A stretch of 64,000 nucleotides of DNA from an uncultured Bizionia sp. (GTDB lineage: Bacteria > Bacteroidota > Bacteroidia > Flavobacteriales > Flavobacteriaceae). Positions 1,907 through 23,127 of the stretch are shown piece after piece. The stretch's first letter is position 1. Every line of letters begins with the position of its first letter. Location of the stretch: positions 186,001 to 250,000 of the forward strand of contig CANMCF010000002.1 in the NCBI GenBank assembly GCA_947496215.1. Reading direction: 5' to 3'. The notes under the pieces were generated by a model. The model had not been told where the DNA came from. It saw only the letters and a list, made by a program, of their open reading frames with translations, and searched no databases. A program made the position numbers and the translations under genes.

Positions 1907-4354
1907 ATGGGAATACAGTCTATGCTTGTCATTGTCAAATCAATAATTCGTAAATTTGTAAAAGCAAAGGATAGCCTTATGAAAGATATAAATGACGAAA
2001 TAGAATCTCCATTTAGACTTGTAGTAAGTTTTAACAAGTTTTTGGAACAGTATGAAACTATGGCAAAAAGCGATGATGAATTTGTCGCAGCCAAAGCAAA
2101 ACGCATATTGGAGGCCCAAGAGTCCTTGCCTTTATTGAGGGAAGGATTTAGTGATCCAACACTATTGGAGACCTATAAAAAGGAAATTCGCTTCATTCTT
2201 CAAGATTCATTTAGCGAGGTGTTGACCCTTAATGAGATAAAGACGGCATCAGTGCCGTTTCACAACATCATCTTCAACTCTTCACAACGGTTTCAAAACA
2301 TAATTAAGAATGCAGGAGACGATTTTGAATTAACCATAACGAATATGCCAGAAGATGGGAAGTACATTATTGCTTGTACGATTATCTTGGGGTTTTGCTA
2401 TGGTTATAATCTAAACTTCAAGCGTCCTTTCTTCTATGAGATTCCTGATGCCGACGGAGTGATACATTATTATAAGATCTTGTACAATGCAGATTTCATG
2501 GAAATCATTCCAACGGACAAAGCAGTGAAGATAACACAGGAAGATATAGATGTGTTGATAGATAATTTTGACAACATAGAGTTATGGAAAGAAAAGTTTC
2601 CGCCAAATAGTTATTTGTTCAAAGGTTTTGTTATTTCCAATATTTTTGATGTGACGGATGATCAGTCCATTTCCAACATAAAATCCAGTTTGATAGGAAA
2701 GGACAAACGTCATGATCAAAACTTCATAGAAAGCTTCCATGATATTTTTAGTTCTCTTTTAAATTTAAAAGGTCTTCGAGTAGGCTTCACTAAATATAAT
2801 AAGGAGGAGAATGCTTTTGAACGAGTTTACGGGCACGGCATCAGTAGCTTCTTGTTGAATGACCTGGATGTCAACAAGTGTTCTGATACACTATGCAGTT
2901 GGTCTTTTAAAGAATTGCTGGAAAAAAATAAGACAATTTCAATTTCTGACGTAGATAAGAAATATGAACAATCCAAAGGGCACGCAGCTCAAGTAAAGAC
3001 ATTGTACGATCAAGGTATCAAAAGTGCTATTTTGGCTCCAATAGCCAATGATGAAGAATTATTGGGAGTGTTAGAACTAGTGTCGACTCGACCAAAAGTC
3101 TTAAATAGCATCAATGCAAACAAGTTGATAGATGTGATGCCTTATATTCTTTCTGCGGTTGAGCGTTCCAAAGAAGAAGAAGAAAACCTCGTAGAAGTTA
3201 TTATTCAAAAAGAATGTACATCGATTCATCCAAGTGTGCATTGGAAGTTCAAGAAGGAAGCAGAGCGTTTTATAAATGAACAATTTAGAGGAAATCAAGT
3301 AGCATTCAATAAAATTGTCTTTGAAGATGTCTACCCATTGTTTGGACAAATAGACATAAAAGGATCTTCGGAGGCAAGAAATTGGGCAACAAAGGAAGAC
3401 TTGTCATTGCAATTGAATGATGCAAAAAGGATTATACAAAAGGCATTGGATTTGGAGGGGTTGCCAATATACGAACAATACATATTTCAGATAGAAACTT
3501 TCTTAGGGAAGTTGAAATCTAATTTTCAGGTGGATAGTGAGCAGCAGATCAATACATTCTTTGAAAATGAAATTACTACATTGTTAAAATACAGAATGAC
3601 CTCGAAGGAATTGGAAGTAGACATAGCTGCATATTTCAATAGCCTGGACGATAAAGTGAAGATTGTTTACAAGCATAGGAAGGATTATGACGATACAGTA
3701 AGCTTGGTCAACAAGAAAATGGCAAGCCTATTGGATGAAAAGCAAGTGGAGGCACAAAAAATGTATCCACATTTCTTTGAGCGTTTTAAAACCGATGGAG
3801 TGGAACACAACATGTACATTGGGGAGTCCATAACAAAGGAAGAGAGTTTCAATCCCATTTATCTGTACAATTTAAGATTATGGCAATTGCAAGTCATGTG
3901 TGAAATGGAAAATGCCTATTACCAAATGCAATCCGAATTCCCGATAGCATTGGATGTGGCCTCGATGATTTTGGTGTTCAATCAACCATTATCAATAAGT
4001 TTCAGGATGGATGAGAAGCAATTCGATGTCGATGGGACTTACAATGCACGTTACGAAGTCGTGAAAAAACGAGTAGACAAAGCCTATATAAAGGGAACGA
4101 AGAAACGGATTACGGAGAAAGGAAAGATCACAATCGTATACTCCCAAAAACAAGACGAAAGAGAATATTTGCGCTATGTTGAGTTTTTGCAATCCAAGAA
4201 ATATTTGGATACCGATGTCGAGATTGTGGAATTGGAGGATCTGCAAGCCGTAACCGGGTTAAAAGCCATTCGCGTTAGTGTACTATACAACAAGGCTGGG
4301 GAAGAGAAAGAGTTCTATACCTACAGTGACTTAATGAAGACCATTAAAGCATAG
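1907..4354 (+). CDS. GAF domain-containing protein (815 aa)
   Basis: Long ORF; the central segment LKGLRVGFTKYNKEENAFERVYGHG...SAILAPIANDEELLGVLELVS reads as a GAF domain. Confidence 0.75.
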   Translation: MGIQSMLVIVKSIIRKFVKAKDSLMKDINDEIESPFRLVVSFNKFLEQYETMAKSDDEFVAAKAKRILEAQESLPLLREGFSDPTLLETYKKEIRFILQDSFSEVLTLNEIKTASVPFHNIIFNSSQRFQNIIKNAGDDFELTITNMPEDGKYIIACTIILGFCYGYNLNFKRPFFYEIPDADGVIHYYKILYNADFMEIIPTDKAVKITQEDIDVLIDNFDNIELWKEKFPPNSYLFKGFVISNIFDVTDDQSISNIKSSLIGKDKRHDQNFIESFHDIFSSLLNLKGLRVGFTKYNKEENAFERVYGHGISSFLLNDLDVNKCSDTLCSWSFKELLEKNKTISISDVDKKYEQSKGHAAQVKTLYDQGIKSAILAPIANDEELLGVLELVSTRPKVLNSINANKLIDVMPYILSAVERSKEEEENLVEVIIQKECTSIHPSVHWKFKKEAERFINEQFRGNQVAFNKIVFEDVYPLFGQIDIKGSSEARNWATKEDLSLQLNDAKRIIQKALDLEGLPIYEQYIFQIETFLGKLKSNFQVDSEQQINTFFENEITTLLKYRMTSKELEVDIAAYFNSLDDKVKIVYKHRKDYDDTVSLVNKKMASLLDEKQVEAQKMYPHFFERFKTDGVEHNMYIGESITKEESFNPIYLYNLRLWQLQVMCEMENAYYQMQSEFPIALDVASMILVFNQPLSISFRMDEKQFDVDGTYNARYEVVKKRVDKAYIKGTKKRITEKGKITIVYSQKQDEREYLRYVEFLQSKKYLDTDVEIVELEDLQAVTGLKAIRVSVLYNKAGEEKEFYTYSDLMKTIKA

Positions 4355-5555
4355 CCGATGCACTTTCTGAAATTTGAAAAGCTATGGCAAAGGCAATCAC
4401 ACTGATAATTATGCCTAGAATAAAAACAGTATAGGTCAAACGTAATATCTTGTATTTTCTATCCAAGACCTTACCTAGGAAGTACAAGTCTTTTTTCATT
4501 GAGGAATAGAGGTAATCTCGATCTTTCATCATTTCACCCATGGCCCATTCAAAGTCGGGAAGACTCATTTTATGGAAATTCCCGAAGAATAACAAGTTTA
4601 CTTTCTTGTTGGCCACATCTTCTTTGGAGAATTTGCCACTAGTTACATTGGGACGAGTGGCTAGTACGGAAAGTACCATGGAGATGACCGTAAACAATAC
4701 GAAGATAATTGTTGGCCAGATTAAATGCTTGTTGGAAGCATTGTCCAATTTTGAAACTAGGTTGGACAATACCAAAGACACGATGATGGCATTTACAGAT
4801 AAGAGTATGTTGGCTTTGGTATCTGCAATGTCACTTAGCGTAATATGGTTGCGAAGTGTAACACGAAACATTGTTTCTATGCCTCTTTCTGGTGTAGCAG
4901 CCTTGTTTTTCTTTAAAACGAGTTCTTCTGCCTTGTTCTTATCCTTTTTTTCTTCAGATTTATGCTTTTTTAGTGTTTTTAACAAGGTTACAAGGTTTCT
5001 ATCTTTCCCTTTTTGCCAATTGTTAATGGCGAAATCACTATGAAAACGATGGTGTTTTGTATAAAAGACTATGTTTTCTTGAGTCCATTCACTGTCCGTA
5101 TATGCCTTGTTGGTTCCCAATTCCCATTCAGCCCTCAACAAATCGCTTATCTCTGCATAGCTCTTACTTTTGAAATGAGCACAATCAGCATCTCGAATTA
5201 TTTTTTCAGAATTTGTCTTTGGTTCGTAATTCATTTTTGTAGCCTCTATCAACTGGGAAATTTCAGAGATGTACGAAGCATCAACATTGTGTTCTTCTAA
5301 AAAAGTAGTTGCAATTTTTATGCTTTCATCTTCATGGTGTTCACAGCCGTTAACATATCCAACATCATGAAACCACGCAGCAATGATAAGATTGTCTGTT
5401 TCTTTTTTAGAGATTTTTTCACCTACAGCCAATATCTTTGCGAATTTCACCACTCGCTGTGTGTGATTTAAATTATGATATAAAAAAGAGGAAGGGAGCT
5501 TGGTTGTAAGTAAAGAAGTAACGAATTTTTCAGCCTCGGCAATAATGATGTCCAT
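4344..5555 (-). CDS. HD-domain protein with C-terminal Pycsar-effector-like (PycTM/DUF5706) transmembrane domain
   Basis: HD motifs HNLNHTQRVVKFA, AAWFHDVGY and HHEDESI; C-terminal FRVTLRNHITLSDIADTKANILLSVNAIIVSLVLSNL plus further TM helices, the DUF5706/PycTM signature. Confidence 0.8.
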   Translation of the reverse strand: MDIIIAEAEKFVTSLLTTKLPSSFLYHNLNHTQRVVKFAKILAVGEKISKKETDNLIIAAWFHDVGYVNGCEHHEDESIKIATTFLEEHNVDASYISEISQLIEATKMNYEPKTNSEKIIRDADCAHFKSKSYAEISDLLRAEWELGTNKAYTDSEWTQENIVFYTKHHRFHSDFAINNWQKGKDRNLVTLLKTLKKHKSEEKKDKNKAEELVLKKNKAATPERGIETMFRVTLRNHITLSDIADTKANILLSVNAIIVSLVLSNLVSKLDNASNKHLIWPTIIFVLFTVISMVLSVLATRPNVTSGKFSKEDVANKKVNLLFFGNFHKMSLPDFEWAMGEMMKDRDYLYSSMKKDLYFLGKVLDRKYKILRLTYTVFILGIIISVIAFAIAFQISESASAML

Positions 5556-10075: not shown

Positions 10076-11188
10076 ATGAAAATTAGATTTAAAAATGGTT
10101 TTATACTGATGATACTATTGTCCTTGGTCTTTTTGTCTTGTAAAGACAAATCAGAGAATTACCAAGATGTATCTTACTTTACCATTAATGCTCAAGGAGA
10201 ATTAGAAAGGCCACAAGATTATAGAACATGGATTTATGTGGGAACACCTGTAACTCCCAATGACATGAATAATGGGAAGGCTGCCTTTCCAGAATTTCAT
10301 AACGTATATGTCGATCCAATGAGTTATGATCATTGGAAAGAACATGGGACATGGAGAGAGGGAACCATACTGGTAAAAGAACTAATAAGTGTGGGATCCA
10401 AAGGTGCAGCAAGTGGCAATGGATATTTCATGGGAGAATTCATTGGGCTGGAAGCCACGATAAAAAGCAAGAAACACTTTCCAAACGAACCAGGGAACTG
10501 GTCATACTTTAGTTTCACCAATCCTAAAGGAGGTGATTTGACCATGACTGGAAAAGCATTTGAAACGAAAATGTGCAATGCCTGCCATAATGCCAATGCT
10601 GGGGATGATTTTGTCTTTACACAGCATTACCCTGTTTTATCTGCAGCCAAAGCTGTTGGAGAGAATATTATCCCTGAAAATGCAGCAGCAAGAATGGCAG
10701 CGGCAAAATCTAAAGTTGCAGTAGGTAAATGGGAAGCGTCTGTGCCAACTCCAGAAAATCTAACGTTGGAGATTCCTTTAACCAAAGATGCGTTGTTCAA
10801 ATACCTGGTCTCAGGAAAATACAAGACCTATGAAAATCAAGAAAAAGAATTGCACCCATCTTTGGGACCACACCAAAAATTGGGATTGCCAGTAAAGGTG
10901 TTCATAAATGACATTGCCGCTGAATCATTGGAGAAAGGAAATGAAGAACATCCTTTGGGGTCTGTAATGGTCAAAGAAATGTATAATAAAGATAAAACAC
11001 CTGCAGGATGGGCGGTCATGGCCAAAACACACGATAAGTCAGATGGAGGAAATGGATGGTTTTGGTATGAAGTCACAGACTCTGAAGACGCTAGGGAAAT
11101 AGCTGCCATCGGTAATGGAGTAGAAGGATGTGTTGGTTGTCATACCATCGGAAGGGATATGGTTAGAACAGTATTTCCATTGCAGTAA
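10076..11188 (+). CDS. Cytochrome P460 family protein with additional C-terminal c-type haem motif
   Basis: Lipoprotein-like signal (LVFLSCK); P460 pattern YRTWIYVGTPVTPNDMNNGKAAFPEFHNVYVDP...CNACH; second CVGCH near the C-terminus. Confidence 0.85.
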   Translation: MKIRFKNGFILMILLSLVFLSCKDKSENYQDVSYFTINAQGELERPQDYRTWIYVGTPVTPNDMNNGKAAFPEFHNVYVDPMSYDHWKEHGTWREGTILVKELISVGSKGAASGNGYFMGEFIGLEATIKSKKHFPNEPGNWSYFSFTNPKGGDLTMTGKAFETKMCNACHNANAGDDFVFTQHYPVLSAAKAVGENIIPENAAARMAAAKSKVAVGKWEASVPTPENLTLEIPLTKDALFKYLVSGKYKTYENQEKELHPSLGPHQKLGLPVKVFINDIAAESLEKGNEEHPLGSVMVKEMYNKDKTPAGWAVMAKTHDKSDGGNGWFWYEVTDSEDAREIAAIGNGVEGCVGCHTIGRDMVRTVFPLQ

Positions 11189-11218
11189 TCAATAACAAAC
11201 CAAATAATACTTTTAAAA

Positions 11219-11830
11219 ATGAATAAGATAAAACATATAGTATTGTTAGTCATTGTTTCAGTGATGCTAACAGCATGTGGAGAAGGAAGCAAATATGAAA
11301 AAGCAATCTACTTTACCATGGACGCCAATGGAGAATTGGTAAGGCCGACAAATTATAGAAGTTGGGTGTATGTTGGGACTCCTTTGACTCCAAACGATAT
11401 GAATAATGGAAAAGCTGCTTTTCCAGAATTCCATAATGTATATATAGATCCGATGAGTTATGATCACTACAAAGAAACCGGAAAATGGAGAGAAGGAACC
11501 ATATTAATAAAAGAATTGGTAAGTGTAGGTAGTAAGGTAGCGGTAAGCGGCAAAGGCTACTTTATGGGAGATTTCATCGGTTTGGAAGCAACTATAAAAA
11601 GTAAGGAGCATTTTCCTAATGAACCAGGGAACTGGTCCTATTTTAGCTTTACGAATCCAGAAAAGGGAACATTGACAGCAACAGGAAAAGCATTCGAGAC
11701 AAATCAATGTAATGCATGTCATGCAAATAGTGCAGGAGACGATTTTGTGTTTACGCAACATTACCCTGTTTTAAGAGCTGCAAAAAATGCAGGAATAAAT
11801 GTTGTGCCAGAAAATATGGCAAAACGATAG
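11219..11830 (+). CDS. Cytochrome P460 family protein (single domain paralogue)
   Basis: YRSWVYVGTPLTPNDMNNGKAAFPEFHNVYIDPMSYDHYKETG...CNACHANSAGDDFVFTQHYPVL; near-identical to the N-terminal domain of the preceding gene. Confidence 0.85.
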   Translation: MNKIKHIVLLVIVSVMLTACGEGSKYEKAIYFTMDANGELVRPTNYRSWVYVGTPLTPNDMNNGKAAFPEFHNVYIDPMSYDHYKETGKWREGTILIKELVSVGSKVAVSGKGYFMGDFIGLEATIKSKEHFPNEPGNWSYFSFTNPEKGTLTATGKAFETNQCNACHANSAGDDFVFTQHYPVLRAAKNAGINVVPENMAKR

Positions 11831-12060: not shown

Positions 12061-12525
12061 ATGATGTTTACATGGAAAGATGTTATTCAGTTTGCTATAA
12101 AAGGAAACCCGACACCAGATAGGCGTGTTGAAAAAACAAATGTCGAATGGAAACAGGAACTAACACCAGAACAATATAGAATTACAAGGAAAAAGGGAAC
12201 GGAACGAGCTCATAGCGGTGCACTATGTAATATTTATGATGCAGGAAAATACAATTGTATCTGTTGCAATACACAGTTGTTTGACTCTACAATTAAATTT
12301 AGTTCCGGGACAGGTTGGCCAAGTTTTACTCAGCCAATTAAAGAGAATGCCATTAAATATAAAAAGGATATGGCCTTTGGTATGACTAGAGTAGAAGTGA
12401 TCTGTAATATATGCGATGCACATTTAGGTCACGTTTTTCCAGATGGTCCCGAGCCCAGTGGATTGCGTTATTGTATAAATTCAGAATCTATACAATTGGA
12501 AAAGGAGGATAACGATGAAAACTAA
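12061..12525 (+). CDS. msrB: Peptide-methionine (R)-S-oxide reductase
   Basis: CICC/CNIC metal-binding pairs, SGTGWPSF, GHVFPDGPEPSGLRYCIN. Confidence 0.95.
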   Translation: MMFTWKDVIQFAIKGNPTPDRRVEKTNVEWKQELTPEQYRITRKKGTERAHSGALCNIYDAGKYNCICCNTQLFDSTIKFSSGTGWPSFTQPIKENAIKYKKDMAFGMTRVEVICNICDAHLGHVFPDGPEPSGLRYCINSESIQLEKEDNDEN

Positions 12526-13057
12526 AAACATAGAAGTTGCAACTTTTGGAGGAGGTTGTTTTTGGTGTACAGAAGCTGTTTTTCAAGAAATAAGAGGAGT
12601 AGAAAAAGTCGTCTCTGGTTATTCGGGCGGAGACAATCCCAAAAAGCCTACCTATAGAGAAATTTGTTCTGGTTTATCGGGTTATGCCGAGGTCGTACAA
12701 GTAACATTTGATGCCAACATCGTTTCTTATGAAGAACTTGTAGTGATTTTCATGACGACTCACGATCCAACAAGTTTAAATAAGCAGGGAGCAGATCGTG
12801 GAACGCAATATCGCTCGGTAGTTTATTACCACAACAAGAGGCAAAAAGAAATGGTAGAGGTCGTTTCAAAAGAAATGGCATTGTATTACCATAACCCAAT
12901 TGTAACGGAAATTTCACCATTGGATGTTTTTTACGAAGCCGAAGAAGGACATCAAGATTATTATAAAAACAATCAAGGGCAAGGTTACTGTAGTTTTGTA
13001 ATAACACCAAAACTAACAAGGTTACGTGAACTTCATGCTAATAAATTGAAAACTTAA
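12515..13057 (+). CDS. msrA: Peptide-methionine (S)-S-oxide reductase
   Basis: ATFGGGCFWCTEAVFQ active site, GYSGG, DPTSLNKQGADRGTQYRS, EEGHQDYYKNN. Confidence 0.95.
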   Translation: MKTKNIEVATFGGGCFWCTEAVFQEIRGVEKVVSGYSGGDNPKKPTYREICSGLSGYAEVVQVTFDANIVSYEELVVIFMTTHDPTSLNKQGADRGTQYRSVVYYHNKRQKEMVEVVSKEMALYYHNPIVTEISPLDVFYEAEEGHQDYYKNNQGQGYCSFVITPKLTRLRELHANKLKT

Positions 13058-15566: not shown

Positions 15567-16089
15567 TTGAAAAACGAATTACATAAAATAGCATTTGGCG
15601 GAGGCTGTCATTGGTGTACGGAAGCAGTCTTTCAATCCTTGAAAGGAGTAGAGAAGGTAGAGCAAGGCTTTATTTCTTCAAGAGGAGAGCATAGGTCTTT
15701 TTCAGAAGCCGTAATCGTCCATTTCAATAAAGAGACGATAGCATTGAAAATACTTTTCGAAATACATTTGCATACTCATAAAAGTCGCTCCAATCATTCC
15801 ATGCGCAGGAAATATAGATCTGCTATCTATGTGTTTAATACAGAACAAGAGGAAGAAGCAACCAGGTTATTGGAAGAATTTCAAATTTTTTTTTAAAGGT
15901 GAATTGATAACCAAGGTGTTGGATTTTACGGCATTTAAGCCTTCGGAGGAGCAATTTCAAAATTACTATGATGCAAATCCGGAAAAACCATTTTGTAAAA
16001 CCTACATAAATCCCAAATTGAAGTTGTTGTTGAAACAATTTTCGAAATATGTAGAAATTGAAAACAACAATTTTAAAGAAACCACCTAG
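15567..16089 (+). pseudogene. Second MsrA-like gene interrupted by a frameshift at a T9 tract
   Basis: TTG start; IAFGGGCHWCTEAVFQSLKGVEKVEQGF in frame 1 stops at TTTTTTTTTAA (T9 at 15886-15894); the reading continues as FKGELITKVLDFTAFKPSEEQFQNYYDANPEKPFCKTYINPKLKLLLKQF in another frame. Removing one T joins the two. Confidence 0.75.
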
Positions 16090-16189: not shown

Positions 16190-19100
16190 ATGAGATTCAA
16201 AAGATTCATTATTTTAAGTGTTGCAATATTTTTGACCAAGGCTTGTGCAACCTATGAACCACAGTATAAAGATGGTAATGTAAGTGGATCTTCCACAGCA
16301 AATAAAGAGATTGAGCATTCTTTCTATTTAATAGGAGATGCAGGGAATTCCCCGATAGATTCAGAATCCAATGCGTTGAAGGCTTTTAAAACAGCATTGA
16401 AAAGTGCAAAGAAAAACAGTACTGCCCTTTTTTTGGGGGACAACATCTATCCTAACGGATTTGTGGGCAAGGAACATGAGGATAGGGCTTTCTCTGAGCA
16501 TCAGTTAAAGATACAAACAGAAGCAGTAAAAGACTTTAAGGGAAATACCATATTCATTCCAGGGAATCATGATTGGTATTCTGGGTTGAAAGGGTTGAAA
16601 CGTCAAGAAAAATATATTGAAGATGCGTTGGGGGAAAATACTTTTCTACCAGAAAATGGTTGTCCGATAAAAAAGGTCAATGTCAGTGACAATGTTGTGA
16701 TGATTATCATAGATACACATTGGTATTTGACGAATTGGGATAAGCATCCAACAATAAACGACGATTGCGAGATTAGAACGAGAACTCAATTTTTCGACGA
16801 ATTTGAAGGACTGGTAAAAAAGGCGAGAGGGAAGACGACATTGATTGCAATGCACCACCCCATATATACAAATGGGCCTCACGGAGGACAGTATTCGGTG
16901 AAACAACACATGGGGCCATTGCCAATTTTGGGGACGGTTAAGAATATATTGAGAAGAACAAGTGGAGTTACGGATACAGATGTGTCGAACAAGCGATATA
17001 ACGAAATGAAAAAACGTATTGTAACCTTGTCCCAAGAGAATAGCAAAGTGGTTTTCGTATCTGGACATGAGCATAGTTTACAATATATCGTTCAAGATAA
17101 TCTACCACAAATTGTAAGTGGATCCGGATCCAAGACAAATCCGACCAAAAACGTTGGAGGAGGGCAATTTTCATATGGGGCAGAAGGATACGCAAGATTG
17201 GATGTGTACAAAGATGGATCTTCTAGCGTACGTTTTTATACAGCAGAGGAGAATGATGTCGTATTTGATGTCGATGTATTTGCAAAGGATAAAAAAGAAA
17301 ATATGAAAACCTATGAACCGGATTTTTCAAATACTAAAACGGCATCGGTGTATACTACGGAAGAAACGGATAAAGGAGGGGTGTATAAAACCCTTTGGGG
17401 GAAACGTTATCGTGAAGACTTCAGTACGCCAGTTACTGTTCCAACGGTTGACTTGGATACACTTTTTGGAGGATTGACACCAGCTCGAAAAGGAGGTGGT
17501 CATCAATCAAAGTCATTGAGATTGAAAGACAAGGATGGTAGAGAGTACGTAATGCGAGCGATACGTAAGAATGCTCTACAATATCTACAAGCCGTAGCAT
17601 TCAAGGATCAATACATAGAAGGGCAATTTGATGGGACATATACAGAAGGATTGTTGCTGGATGTCTTTACAGGATCTCATCCCTACGCTCCGTTTACAAT
17701 AGGGGTATTATCGGATGCAGTGGGTGTTTTTCATACTAACCCAGTGTTATATTATGTTCCTAAACAAAATGCATTATCCCATTTTAACGATGAGTATGGA
17801 GATGAGTTGTACATGATTGAGGAACGTGCTGCATCTGGTCACGGAAATGCCAAGAGCTTTGGTTTTTCAGACACTGTGATAAGTACAGACGATCTATTGA
17901 AGAAATTGAGAAAGAATGCAAATCATTATTTGGATGAAGAAGCCTATATCCGAGCACGTTTGTTCGATATGCTAATTGGAGATTGGGACAGGCATGAAGA
18001 CCAATGGCGTTGGGCAACGTTCAAGGAAGACGGGAAAACGATCTATAGGCCGATACCTAGAGATCGAGATCAAGCATTTTCCATTATGGCGGACGGTACG
18101 TTGTTGGGCATAGCTACAAACATAGTACCTGCTCTACGTTTGATGCGCAGTTATAGTGAAGATCTTAAAAGCCCAAAATGGTTCAATTTGGAACCTTACC
18201 CTTTGGATATGGCTTTGATAAATGAGTCTGACAGAACAGTATGGAATGCACAAGTAGAGCATATAACAAGCAATTTAACGGATGAGGTGATAGATCAAGC
18301 TTTCAAGTCTTTTCCATCAGAAGTCAATGCTGAAACCATTCAGGGGATCAAACGAAAACTAATGGGGAGACGAGAAAATCTCCAAAAGATATCGGACGAT
18401 TATTATGATCATATCAACAAATATGCTGTAATAACAGGTACTGACAAGGACGATTGGTTTGAAATAATGAGATTGGCAAACGGTCAAACGAAGATTGTTG
18501 CCTACCGAATCAAGAAAGGAGAGAAAGCAGATGTTTTTCACACGAGGACATATTCTTGTTCGGATACCAAGGAAATATGGATTTACGGATTGGATGATGA
18601 GGATGTCTTTGCTGTTTCAGGAGAAGGAGACAAGTTAATTCCCTTGCGATTGATAGGAGGGCAAAACAAAGACACCTACACCATAGAAAATGGCAAGAAA
18701 GTTAAGGTGTATGATTACAAGTCGAAGAAAAATGAATTCACAACAGGTGAAGGGACTTTAAAACTAACCGATGATTACGAAACGAATACCTATGACTATA
18801 AAAAACTGAAGAATAGTTCCAATCAGTTCATTCCATCGATAGGATCGAACCCAGACGATGGATTCAAAATAGGGTTTGTCGATACGTTTTCCACTTTCGG
18901 TTTCGAGCGTAACCCATTTACGCAACAACATGTGTTTTCTGCAGCCTACTATTTTGCAACGAGCGGATTTGATTTCAGCTACAAAGGGGAATTTGCCAAT
19001 GTCATTGGAAAGTGGAATCTAGGTTTGGAAGCTACTTTCACAAGTCCAAACTACAGTGAGAATTTCTTTGGCTTCGGAAATGAAACATTGAATCCCAACA

Positions 19101-19864
19101 GTGAGGATGAAGACAATTTCGATTTGGATTACAATAGGGTGAAATTGCAAACGATTGGTTTTTCCCCATCCTTGATTTTCAAAGGGGATTTGGGCTCTAA
19201 AATCAAGATAGGATTGTCGTACGAAGATATTGAGGTCGAAGAAACTCAAGATCGTTTTATAGATGGGTTTTATACAATAAATGAGGATGGCAACAAAAAC
19301 TCCTTTGCCGGAGTTGAAGCTAGCTATAGTTTTGAAAACAAAGACAACAAGGCTTTCCCGACATTGGGAATGGAAACTGGTTTGCAGGTCGGTTACAAAA
19401 CAAATTTAGACGATTCCAAAGGCTTTGCCTATGTTATGCCGTCTTTGGGTTTCGATTATAAATTGGTGTCAAGTGGACAATTGGTATTGGCGACAAAGGC
19501 AAGTGCGCATTTTAACTTTGGAGACGATTTCGAATTTTACCAAGGTGCAAACTTGGGAGCAAACAATGGATTGAGAGGATACCGAAACCAACGATTTACA
19601 GGGAAAAGTGCTTTTGTGCAAAGTACCGATTTACGTTTGAACCTGCGCAAGGTGAAAACTGGGATCTTACCATTGAACATTGGAATTTATGGAGGTGTGG
19701 ATTATGGACGTGTTTGGGTGGAAGATGATAATTCCAAGAAATGGAACAACTCCATTGGAGGAGGTTTGTTCTTCAATGGAGCAGGGATGCTTGTTGGCAA
19801 CTTATCGGCATTTAACAGTGATGATGGGTTGCGTTTGGCCTTTAAATTGGGCTTTGGGTTCTAG
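16190..19864 (+). CDS. Metallophosphoesterase + kinase-like + C-terminal beta-barrel outer-membrane fusion (1224 aa)
   Basis: Lipobox LTKAC; GDAGN, GDNIYPNG, GNHDWYSG, HHPIYTNGPHGG, GHEH (calcineurin-like); middle region with IGDWDRHEDQWRW and RPIPRDRDQAF; C-terminal BamA/TamA-like strands (NNGLRGYRNQRFTGKSAFVQSTDLRLNL...LRLAFKLGFGF). Confidence 0.85.
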   Translation: MRFKRFIILSVAIFLTKACATYEPQYKDGNVSGSSTANKEIEHSFYLIGDAGNSPIDSESNALKAFKTALKSAKKNSTALFLGDNIYPNGFVGKEHEDRAFSEHQLKIQTEAVKDFKGNTIFIPGNHDWYSGLKGLKRQEKYIEDALGENTFLPENGCPIKKVNVSDNVVMIIIDTHWYLTNWDKHPTINDDCEIRTRTQFFDEFEGLVKKARGKTTLIAMHHPIYTNGPHGGQYSVKQHMGPLPILGTVKNILRRTSGVTDTDVSNKRYNEMKKRIVTLSQENSKVVFVSGHEHSLQYIVQDNLPQIVSGSGSKTNPTKNVGGGQFSYGAEGYARLDVYKDGSSSVRFYTAEENDVVFDVDVFAKDKKENMKTYEPDFSNTKTASVYTTEETDKGGVYKTLWGKRYREDFSTPVTVPTVDLDTLFGGLTPARKGGGHQSKSLRLKDKDGREYVMRAIRKNALQYLQAVAFKDQYIEGQFDGTYTEGLLLDVFTGSHPYAPFTIGVLSDAVGVFHTNPVLYYVPKQNALSHFNDEYGDELYMIEERAASGHGNAKSFGFSDTVISTDDLLKKLRKNANHYLDEEAYIRARLFDMLIGDWDRHEDQWRWATFKEDGKTIYRPIPRDRDQAFSIMADGTLLGIATNIVPALRLMRSYSEDLKSPKWFNLEPYPLDMALINESDRTVWNAQVEHITSNLTDEVIDQAFKSFPSEVNAETIQGIKRKLMGRRENLQKISDDYYDHINKYAVITGTDKDDWFEIMRLANGQTKIVAYRIKKGEKADVFHTRTYSCSDTKEIWIYGLDDEDVFAVSGEGDKLIPLRLIGGQNKDTYTIENGKKVKVYDYKSKKNEFTTGEGTLKLTDDYETNTYDYKKLKNSSNQFIPSIGSNPDDGFKIGFVDTFSTFGFERNPFTQQHVFSAAYYFATSGFDFSYKGEFANVIGKWNLGLEATFTSPNYSENFFGFGNETLNPNSEDEDNFDLDYNRVKLQTIGFSPSLIFKGDLGSKIKIGLSYEDIEVEETQDRFIDGFYTINEDGNKNSFAGVEASYSFENKDNKAFPTLGMETGLQVGYKTNLDDSKGFAYVMPSLGFDYKLVSSGQLVLATKASAHFNFGDDFEFYQGANLGANNGLRGYRNQRFTGKSAFVQSTDLRLNLRKVKTGILPLNIGIYGGVDYGRVWVEDDNSKKWNNSIGGGLFFNGAGMLVGNLSAFNSDDGLRLAFKLGFGF

Positions 19865-20200: not shown

Positions 20201-22213
20201 ATGAAAAAAACATTACTTTTTCTATCCATTGTCTTTGTTGTGCACGGGATATATGCACAAGAGCATTGTGGACAAGACTCATATCAACAAAAAATCTATG
20301 ATGAAGATCCAACATTGAGACCAGAGAATAATTTGGCCTATCAAGAATTGGAAGAATTTACAAGGGCATTCATATCCGATGATGCCAATTTCGAATCCAG
20401 AGACATTGGGGATCTAACGATCGGAACGGATTATATCATTCCTGTAGTCGTACATGTAATACACAACAATGGACCTGAAAACATTTCAGATCAAGCTGTG
20501 GAAAGATCCATAGAGATGCTTAATACGTTTTATGCTGGCAAATCTGCTTTTGATGGTAACATCGATTCCGATTTTTTATCGGTCAGGGGAGGATTTACAA
20601 ACAAGAAGTTAAAGTTCGTCTTGGCGAAATTTGACCCTAGCGGCAATCCGACCAATGGAATAGATAGACAGGTAGACCCTGTCTATACCTTGAAGGGTGA
20701 TGACAATGCCATGAGACAAACATATCACTGGCCTAGGGCAAACTATTTCAACATCTATGTGGTAAGACAAGCTGTGGATGGTAGTGGAACTTCCGGGTTT
20801 GCCACTTTCCCACCAGATGTTAGTTCACCATCAAATGCATACAAGGATGGACACGTCATGTCTGCTTGGGCATATGGAGAACACGATCAGATGTGGCAGA
20901 CTTGGTATCACAATCTCGCACATGAAGTTGGGCATTGGTTAAATGTATATCACATATGGGCAAACGCAGGAGGCAATGGCAACAATGTATATTGCAATCA
21001 GGATGATTCCGTTTCCGATACACCCAATACAAAGGGCAATGGCTTACAAGATCTAGACAACTTCCCAGGAGTGGGATCGGTTTCAAATTGTGGAAGCAAA
21101 GACAATTACACCAATATGATGGATTATACATCGGCTACATATGCAATGTTTACCAATGGACAAAAAGCAAGAATGGAGGCAGCATTGAACTCTAGTGTCT
21201 CGGATAGAAACAACTTGTGGTCGGTAAATAATGTGTTGACGACATTGTATGGCTGCACAACTGGATTGGATAGTGACAATGATAGCATACCTGATGCTTG
21301 TGATGATTGTCCGAATGACATAAACAACGATAGTGATGGAGATGGAGTTTGCGATAGCGCAGACATGTGCAATGGCTATCCGGACGTTAACCTGGATGCG
21401 AATCCTGCTGCGATGGATTCTTGTGATGCGCTTTTGCCTATCAAGGATTTTAATTCGGAAACGATTTTGACCTACGATCCTGCCCAAGACAAAGGGGTTT
21501 CAGATGTCTATGACAATGGAGCAACATTGCATCTATCCGTAAATGCATGGAAATCCATTGCATTGAATTATACCATTACAGCAAATACGGTGTTGGAGTT
21601 CGATTTCAAGAGTACCATAGAAGGTGAGGTACATTACATAGGAATAGATGATGACTTGGCATTGGATCCAACTTTGGCATTCAAGCTGTTTGGAACACAG
21701 AATGTTACTGCATCCGGGATTTTTAATTTGGATTATGAAACGTATACGGATGGAGACCTTTACACATACAAGCATTATTCCATTCCCATTGGGACATTTT
21801 ATACGGGCAATGCTCCCTACTTGTTCTTTGCAGCAGATAACGACAGTTTCAACGAGACGTGGAATGGTGGAAACAATTATCCTGGAGGAGGAAGTTACAA
21901 TGATGGAACTTCATTTTTTAGAAATGTGAAAATCTATGAAAGCAATACATTGTCCACTTCTGAAGTAGGTGATCTGCCATCGGTAGTTTCCCTATATCCA
22001 AATCCTGTGGAGGATGTGTTTACAATTGTTGCCAAGAAAGGGCAATTGTCGAAACTGACGATATACGACATCAACGGAAGGTTCATAAAAACCATCGAGA
22101 TCCCAGGAAAGGAATCGGAAACCATTAATGTAGAAACGCTTTCTTCTGGAGTTTACTTCTCCTTGATAGAAACCAACCTGACCACAACGGTCAAGAAATT
22201 GATCAAATTATAG
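20201..22213 (+). CDS. Secreted M43-type (pappalysin-like) zinc metalloprotease with thrombospondin type-3-like repeats and T9SS sorting domain
   Basis: LAHEVGHWLNVYH zinc motif; DSDNDSIPDACDDCPNDINNDSDGDGVCD; C-terminal LYPNPVEDVFTI...GVYFSLIETNLTTTVKKLIKL. Confidence 0.9.
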   Translation: MKKTLLFLSIVFVVHGIYAQEHCGQDSYQQKIYDEDPTLRPENNLAYQELEEFTRAFISDDANFESRDIGDLTIGTDYIIPVVVHVIHNNGPENISDQAVERSIEMLNTFYAGKSAFDGNIDSDFLSVRGGFTNKKLKFVLAKFDPSGNPTNGIDRQVDPVYTLKGDDNAMRQTYHWPRANYFNIYVVRQAVDGSGTSGFATFPPDVSSPSNAYKDGHVMSAWAYGEHDQMWQTWYHNLAHEVGHWLNVYHIWANAGGNGNNVYCNQDDSVSDTPNTKGNGLQDLDNFPGVGSVSNCGSKDNYTNMMDYTSATYAMFTNGQKARMEAALNSSVSDRNNLWSVNNVLTTLYGCTTGLDSDNDSIPDACDDCPNDINNDSDGDGVCDSADMCNGYPDVNLDANPAAMDSCDALLPIKDFNSETILTYDPAQDKGVSDVYDNGATLHLSVNAWKSIALNYTITANTVLEFDFKSTIEGEVHYIGIDDDLALDPTLAFKLFGTQNVTASGIFNLDYETYTDGDLYTYKHYSIPIGTFYTGNAPYLFFAADNDSFNETWNGGNNYPGGGSYNDGTSFFRNVKIYESNTLSTSEVGDLPSVVSLYPNPVEDVFTIVAKKGQLSKLTIYDINGRFIKTIEIPGKESETINVETLSSGVYFSLIETNLTTTVKKLIKL

Positions 22214-22308: not shown

Positions 22309-23127
22309 TTATTTTTTCAATGAAAACTCATAGGTGTTACCACCTTCCGTATTGTCATATTCATCGGTAATGAGGACGGTATTGCCAGTTTTGAAGCAAA
22401 TACCTTCCTTTTGGGAAGTGTGTTCGAAAGGTAATGCTTCAACAGAACCTTCAAAAAAATTATCGCCATCAAAGTTTGTAAGTTTCCATAGTTTGTCGTG
22501 ATTCAACAAAATAATGGTCTTGCCATCTGGACTGATGTCTGCTGCTGTCACCCTGTTCTTTTTGCCTTCTAAATTGAATTCGGTAACAAATTGTGCCAAA
22601 TGATTGCCCATTATGTTTGGGACGGAAACAACAATTGCCTTTTTATCATTTTTACTGAAAACATAAAAGGTGTCATTAAATAAAAAGAAGGCTTCAAAAT
22701 CTTTGGGTTTGATGGTGTCAGGAAGCTTGAAGGTAATGATTTCTGCATTCACTCTGTCTTCAAGAGAAGCAACGTTGTTAACCTTGTAGATGGTAAATGT
22801 CTCACGTTTTTTGGAATTGTTTCCAAAATCGCCAATGTAAAGATTGCCATTGCCATCACTAGTTAAATCCTCCCAATCCATATTCGTGCTATTTCCAATG
22901 ACTATGTTTTTTGCGATGCCTCCTTTGGAGTCCAATCCGTAAAGGTTGTTCTTGTTTCCAGAATCCTCAATGACCCAAATCAAATCGGAATTAGTTATGG
23001 TTTCAACGGCAGAAACCTCTTTAAGATCACTGGAAATGTCGGCAACGACTTTTAAACGACCTGTATTGCAAGACAAGACCATAAGTGACAAGAAGAGTAG
23101 GCAAGAAAAACAGCGATGCATAATCAA
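22309..23127 (-). CDS. Lipoprotein, putative beta-propeller
   Basis: LSLMVLSCNTG lipobox; repeated DGNGNLYIGDFGNN / DGKTIILLNHDKLWKL strands. Confidence 0.6.
   Translation of the reverse strand: MIMHRCFSCLLFLSLMVLSCNTGRLKVVADISSDLKEVSAVETITNSDLIWVIEDSGNKNNLYGLDSKGGIAKNIVIGNSTNMDWEDLTSDGNGNLYIGDFGNNSKKRETFTIYKVNNVASLEDRVNAEIITFKLPDTIKPKDFEAFFLFNDTFYVFSKNDKKAIVVSVPNIMGNHLAQFVTEFNLEGKKNRVTAADISPDGKTIILLNHDKLWKLTNFDGDNFFEGSVEALPFEHTSQKEGICFKTGNTVLITDEYDNTEGGNTYEFSLKK

Follow-up and report, generated by a model that had tools for sequence, protein, structure and literature searches.

The 64,000-nucleotide stretch of contig CANMCF010000002.1 from an uncultured Bizionia sp. (GCA_947496215.1, positions 186,001–250,000; hereafter the window) carries, at 16190–19864 (+), a gene for a 1224-residue protein in which a metallophosphoesterase (MPE), a kinase-like domain (KIN), a β-rich linker (LINK), and an Omp85 β-barrel (BAR) follow one another. 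This protein is probably an atypical kinase/phosphatase that is tethered to the outer membrane, faces the periplasm, and forms one half of a module with an inner-membrane protein, HD-PycTM, in which an HD phosphohydrolase domain is joined to the transmembrane (TM) domain of Pycsar effectors. The PycTM partnership of the kinase domain is a new result.

The open reading frame (ORF) is intact, running from an ATG start with no internal stop, and the gene is single-copy in its genome; 80 orthologues are 54–89% identical to it. On the whole protein, Pfam reports PF00149 (E = 5e-9), with ShlB below threshold, and residues 380–900 have no curated Pfam or NCBIfam coverage. Single-sequence searches of the middle domain against the PDB, Pfam, and NCBIfam returned chance matches only (EnY2, HDAC6). 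The initial annotation, made from the letters alone, had placed a kinase-like domain between a calcineurin-type phosphoesterase and a BamA/TamA-like barrel, and the motifs that it quoted are all present: GDNIYPNG (residues 83–90), GNHDW (125–129), and GHEH (292–295) in the phosphoesterase, and GGGHQSK (435–441), YVMRAIRK (453–460), YMIEE (541–545), GDWDRHEDQWRW (597–608), and RPIPRDRDQAF (620–630) in the middle domain. These motifs are far from chance; those of the middle domain are conserved across 173 related domains.

KIN comprises residues ~400–745 (17387–18424, +). AlphaFold2, supplied with 81 orthologues, models this domain at a predicted local distance difference test score (pLDDT) of 85.6 and a predicted TM-score (pTM) of 0.86; the model of residues 25–1224 has a pLDDT of 86.6 and a pTM of 0.86. 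KIN is bilobal, with a β-sheet in the N-lobe and a helical C-lobe, as in the protein kinase-like (PKL) fold, and all 13 of the PDB entries that Foldseek matches at E ≤ 1e-3 are kinases or kinase-fold phosphotransferases. The top match is CtkA (E = 1.4e-5, probability 1.00), followed by HipA, Rio2, and PI4KII-α; HipT is also matched, and Fam20C (4kqa) appears at rank 23 (probability 0.99, E = 2e-3). The kinase-like middle domain proposed from the letters thus has the bilobal fold on which that proposal depended, and in fold it comes closest to kinases of the HipA, CtkA, PI4KII, and Fam20 types.

Profile comparison with hhalign gives KIN a score of 40.2 against HipA and 33.5 against CotH, where the maxima of 60 column shuffles are 21.4 and 22.7, respectively, column shuffles average 14, reversed profiles and unrelated domains score 12–20, and the positive control, CotH against HipA, scores 46.0. 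One of 20 initial column shuffles of CotH gave an implausible 133, which did not recur in the 60 later shuffles that were used. In the resulting register, the catalytic Asp corresponds to D600, the metal-binding Asn to Q605, and the two Asp of the CotH IPxDxD motif to D625 and D627.

The HipA/CtkA/HipT Ser-Thr kinases (PF07804) are the best structural matches to KIN, and their catalytic loop is in register with that of KIN; however, KIN differs in being extracytoplasmic, in having no toxin–antitoxin pair, in the Gln at its metal position, and in its fusion to an MPE and a barrel. It fails the HipA_C (PF07804) cut-off: hmmscan matches neither the window protein (E ≤ 1) nor any of 81 members (E ≤ 10). 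CotH proteins (PF08757), which are also extracytoplasmic kinases, share with KIN the second motif IPxDxD and a GxWD-type catalytic loop, but no alignment of the N-lobe was found, and KIN is below the Pfam threshold, with only 1 of 81 members matched, at E = 0.029. Fam20C has the kinase fold in common with KIN and acts outside the cytosol, but it is a weaker match than HipA and CtkA, is eukaryotic, and comes without phosphatase or barrel. The C-lobe of KIN (residues 570–734; 17897–18391) weakly matches PADLOC PDC-M03A (E = 8e-5), a candidate phage-defence family that is perhaps another remote relative. From sequence and predicted fold, it looks as if KIN works like the HipA/CotH group of kinases.

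PI4KII-α is one of the best structural matches, and few others have TM-scores as high as its 0.44/0.46, which raises the alternative that the protein is a lipid kinase/phosphatase acting on an outer-membrane lipid at the inner leaflet (lipid A, a phosphoinositide, or a sphingolipid head group), for which tethering to the membrane would be fitting. We consider this alternative unlikely, as the protein kinases CtkA and HipA are better matches by E-value and no lipid-metabolism gene consistently adjoins KIN among the loci examined.

The active-site motifs of KIN can be assigned in full. A Gly-rich loop, GGG (435–437; 17492–17500, +), lies between the first two strands of the model and is 0.82–0.86 conserved, and the β3 Lys, Lys460 (17567–17569, +), is at the end of the third strand. 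The catalytic-loop motif GDWDRHEDQW (597–606; 17978–18007, +), which aligns with HipA NxDDHxxN and CotH NWDN, contains the predicted catalytic Asp, D600, and has Q605 at the predicted position of the metal Asn. In IPRDRDQAF (622–630; 18053–18079, +), which aligns with CotH IPYDYDNTLG, D625 occupies the position of the DFG Asp. Weighted conservation across the 173 KIN domains is 0.91 for K460, 0.92 for E544, 0.96 for D598, 0.87 for D600, 0.94 for R601, 0.87 for Q605, 0.98 for W606, and 0.90 for D625; at these positions and at H602, R626, and D627, nearly every member has the same letter. The β3 Lys, the catalytic Asp, and the DFG-like metal Asp of a PKL enzyme (K460, D600, and D625) are near-invariant, and the RAIRK Lys and the DRH and RDRD residues on which the initial annotation had staked its reading are all conserved. 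Identical letters at these eleven positions (KEDDRHQWDRD) and the complete set of MPE ligands are found in 103 of 109 close full-length homologues. Kinase residues have been lost in about five independent lineages, with clear loss of catalytic residues in L132–L135, L137, L138, L140, L141, L169, and L171. In two further loci (L118:4129–9148 and L121:3551–6890), neighboring KIN-LINK genes include one copy with Ser-Arg-Arg in place of Asp-Arg-His and another that is intact; judging by this substitution, the former is likely a pseudokinase, and the gene pairs are reminiscent of the pseudokinase–kinase pair Fam20A/Fam20C.

With only the middle domain as query, KIN is found in 112 of 297 Bacteroidota genomes (E ≤ 1e-3), and a scan of the whole collection yields 585 or more relatives, of which the top 80 are full-length and of the Flavobacteriaceae type. 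In the plasmid collection, KIN is confined to Hymenobacter, Persicobacter, and Parabacteroides, all Bacteroidota, and the phage collection holds no relatives. KIN has been seen only in Bacteroidota, other phyla not having been searched systematically.

KIN is the constant part of these proteins, and the MPE is optional. The 173 KIN domains occur as MPE-KIN-LINK-BAR (134, among which orthologues are over-represented), KIN-LINK-BAR (25), KIN-LINK (8), and KIN alone (6), such that 39 of the 173 are without any MPE; LINK accompanies KIN in barrel-less proteins. In L119 and L120, KIN-LINK, MPE, and BAR are encoded by three consecutive genes of a split operon, with overlapping ORFs in L119, whose separate barrel gene matches PF01103 (E = 8e-13). 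The KIN tree requires at least seven changes in the presence of the MPE and at least five in that of the barrel. Apart from the six stand-alone ones, all KIN proteins start with a signal peptide, which may or may not include a lipobox. The stand-alone proteins (L112–L117, ~430 residues) have an N-terminal hydrophobic TM-like segment resembling an inner-membrane anchor, and their genomes also encode the full-length protein.

HD-PycTM is a 403-residue protein encoded at 4344–5555 (−) of the window, with matches to PF18967 (E = 1e-37), PF01966 (E = 6e-7), and the PADLOC PycTM profile (E = 2e-18), and its gene is the sole PycTM gene of the genome. Neighbor clustering recovers this protein in 79 of 140 KIN loci. 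Its gene is divergent to the KIN gene in 54 of the 61 linked orthologue loci, with a median gap of 154 bp; in the window, the two genes are also divergent, with ~10.6 kb of other genes between them. Of the 297 Bacteroidota genomes, 94 of the 112 with KIN and 7 of the 185 without have a strong PycTM gene (odds ratio 133), strong meaning E below 1e-19, a cut chosen after the list was seen; with the search's default threshold, the odds ratio becomes 68. In 82 of the 94 genomes, the two genes are no more than 15 kb apart, and because these linked pairs come from 19 families and occur in several relative orientations, inherited gene order alone explains the linkage poorly. It is highly probable that KIN depends functionally on its PycTM partner.

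The partner shares the PF18967 domain with the Pycsar effector PycTM, but differs from it in its fusion to HD (in one family it stands alone), in being single-copy as a rule, and in its linkage to KIN and mostly not to a cyclase; most loci have no cyclase beside KIN or HD-PycTM and so do not resemble a Pycsar gene pair. A class III nucleotide cyclase with tetratricopeptide repeats (TPRs) is located 29–69 bp after KIN in one family only (L147, L148, L156, and L157), and the PycTM protein of that family has no HD domain. L128 was rejected as a fifth such case, its TPR-like protein being without a cyclase part.

Several points weigh against reading KIN as an active kinase that works with PycTM. 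The TM-scores of KIN to solved kinases are modest (0.33–0.46 by query length, with root-mean-square deviations of 8–10 Å for the best matches), a loose superposition that is as expected for a remote relative with inserts. The metal Asn is replaced by Gln605 in nearly all KIN members, with Asn at this position only in L122, L139, L155, and L169 among the members read, and this replacement is the single consistent departure of KIN from HipA and CotH. Of the 17 readable KIN-containing genomes without a strong PycTM gene, seven have an intact kinase, the other 10 having a degenerate one; counted by independent pairs, the trend toward intact kinases with PycTM is 4:0, a number of events too small to be significant (sign test, p = 0.125). 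The p-values for co-occurrence of KIN and PycTM also ignore relatedness. Lastly, we know of no ATP supply in the periplasm, which makes the phosphate donor the central question.

The Gln at the metal position and the loss of catalytic residues in several lineages could also be rationalized with a pseudokinase, in which KIN would be a nucleotide or ligand sensor or a scaffold and only the phosphoesterase would be enzymatic. This is improbable, as all 94 genomes with both KIN and a strong PycTM gene encode at least one KIN with K460, D600, Q/N605, and D625 in place, the active-site letters rank among the most conserved of the whole protein, and the kinase outlives the phosphoesterase, both in the KIN domains without an MPE and in others beside a degenerate one. 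KIN is predicted, and quite likely, to have phosphotransferase activity.

Following KIN, LINK (residues ~745–876; 18422–18817, +), delimited by DSSP of the full model and by the architectures, leads into a 16-strand barrel (18818–19861, +) with a C-terminal Phe. The NCBIfam match of this barrel to Omp85 is weak, and the structure confirms it strongly: the barrel is of the BamA/TamA type, matching TamA (4n74, TM-score 0.76 by target length) and BamA, and the RG(Y/F) loop motif of the family can be read directly as RGY. The C-terminal strands first described as BamA/TamA-like therefore belong to an Omp85 barrel. There are no POTRA domains; MPE-KIN-LINK makes up the N-terminal part of the protein. 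In the Omp85 family, both termini and the N-terminal domains are periplasmic. Because a 16-strand Omp85 barrel has both termini on the periplasmic side, KIN and the MPE most likely face the periplasm by analogy, and the cell-surface placement in the initial annotation is not supported. The signal peptide (16190–16246, +) ends in a lipobox-like sequence with Cys19, which would be lipidated; orthologues mostly read NACATY at this point, and in some more distant homologues an ordinary signal peptide replaces the lipobox.

The lipobox is real, and Bacteroidota often show lipoproteins on their surface, such that the barrel might instead carry the enzymes to the cell surface by Omp85-type export, where they would act on external substrates. 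Enzyme–Omp85 fusions such as PlpD exist (PMC4104836), and export of this kind has been suggested for PlpD. Surface export is hardly likely here, given the periplasmic topology of Omp85 N-terminal domains and of both ends of a 16-strand barrel; in addition, direct reading finds no canonical lipoprotein surface-export signal after Cys19, and the best-linked partner is an inner-membrane/cytoplasmic protein.

The MPE (residues ~31–375; 16280–17314, +) exceeds the curated cut-off of PF00149 (Metallophos), and its Foldseek matches include GAP50 (3tgh, E = 1.9e-11) and purple acid phosphatase (PAP; 1xzw, E = 1.9e-8). Its metal ligands are complete, including the PAP tyrosine: D50, D84, Y87, N126, H222/H223, H293, and H295. 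The domain first described as a calcineurin-type phosphoesterase is thus PAP-like. The ligand set is complete in most fused members and degraded in L143, L155, L159, L162, and L163, all of which except L155 have an intact kinase.

Fusions of PF00149 with Omp85 were catalogued as "Metallo" by Heinz and Lithgow in 2014, who also describe Omp85 subfamilies without POTRA (PMC4104836). That paper calls PF00149 a metalloprotease domain, does not use the word kinase, reports conservation at the genus level, and considers these proteins to act in periplasmic quality control (PMC4104836). The "Metallo" subfamily, which shares PF00149 and a barrel without POTRA, very probably consists in part of the same proteins; the present family differs from its description in that KIN is the constant part and is spread over more than a hundred of the sampled genomes. 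A role in phosphate scavenging or as an assembly factor like BAM/TAM, in which the enzyme domains would be decorative, in line with the 2014 view of these fusions, is very improbable, as POTRA domains are absent, the MPE is dispensable and KIN is constant, and the linked genes are PycTM/HD, a propeller-like lipoprotein, and PPK1, not assembly factors.

The propeller-like lipoprotein (22309–23127, −), related to SdiA-regulated/Phytase-like proteins, is a recurrent neighbor, lying near KIN in 44 of 80 orthologue loci and in 15–16 distant loci, in most of which it is directly upstream of KIN on the same strand. In L265, HD-PycTM, the propeller, and KIN-LINK-BAR are consecutive on one strand, and the first two ORFs overlap by 4 bp. 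An 815-residue protein with a weak GAF match (PF01590, E = 1e-4; 1907–4354, +) recurs near the HD-PycTM and KIN genes in 46 of 80 orthologue loci and 6 of 60 diverse loci. Full-length PPK1 genes are found within ~3 kb of KIN in about ten distant loci of several families, whereas, by a rough estimate, chance would give far fewer than one. This association is only a hint, since the PPK1 of the genome studied here is unlinked to the KIN gene and almost all genomes encode PPK1 (268 of 297). The polyphosphate substrate guessed at initially gains no more than circumstantial support from PPK1 beside KIN in several families. The 13 genomes in which PPK1 is up to 20 kb from KIN were set aside, as these are of a single family and may reflect simple synteny, and CotH beside KIN was rejected as a general pattern, being seen at two loci only; the genome itself encodes two separate true CotH genes. 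SelO genes recur near orthologues (24 of 80 loci). In the window, an M43 metallopeptidase of the pappalysin type that carries a type IX secretion sorting domain (20201–22213, +) lies between the KIN and propeller genes, two closely similar tandem lipoproteins with a CxxC(H)-type motif are encoded at 10076–11830 (+), the second ORF being shorter and apparently truncated, and an msrB-msrA pair and a second, shorter MsrA-like ORF are located at 12061–13057 and 15567–15896 (+).

A mechanism for the kinase/phosphatase module can be proposed on this basis. The protein would be held in the outer membrane by its Omp85 barrel and, in this case, also by a lipid at its N-terminus, and the linker, kinase, and phosphoesterase would hang from there in the periplasm, as Omp85 topology implies. 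KIN, as a HipA/CotH/Fam20/PI4KII-type enzyme, would add phosphate, or possibly AMP, to an envelope substrate, and the PAP-like MPE, where present, may reverse the modification or recycle phosphate. The inner-membrane HD-PycTM and the outer-membrane kinase would regulate or report to each other. A bolder version, in which trans-envelope phosphate signaling employs an outer-membrane kinase with a donor other than cytosolic ATP (polyphosphate from PPK1 or an exported nucleotide) and is switched by HD-PycTM, is a long shot; if true, the PycTM domain would have a housekeeping use here, and no kinase/phosphatase pair would have been found in an Omp85 barrel before. To our knowledge, few bacterial kinases act outside the cytoplasm. 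The searchable literature, which does not include most subscription journals, contains no paper on this kinase domain or its PycTM link and no known case of a kinase and a phosphatase combined in an outer-membrane barrel protein.

KIN lacks a Pfam or NCBIfam name and yet occurs in over a third of the sampled Bacteroidota genomes. Its near-obligate coupling to PycTM offers a genetic entry to a possible phosphorylation-based communication between the two membranes and to a role outside defence that a Pycsar-type effector domain may have. Co-inheritance with PycTM across the phylum suggests a phosphate-signaling system that spans the bacterial envelope.

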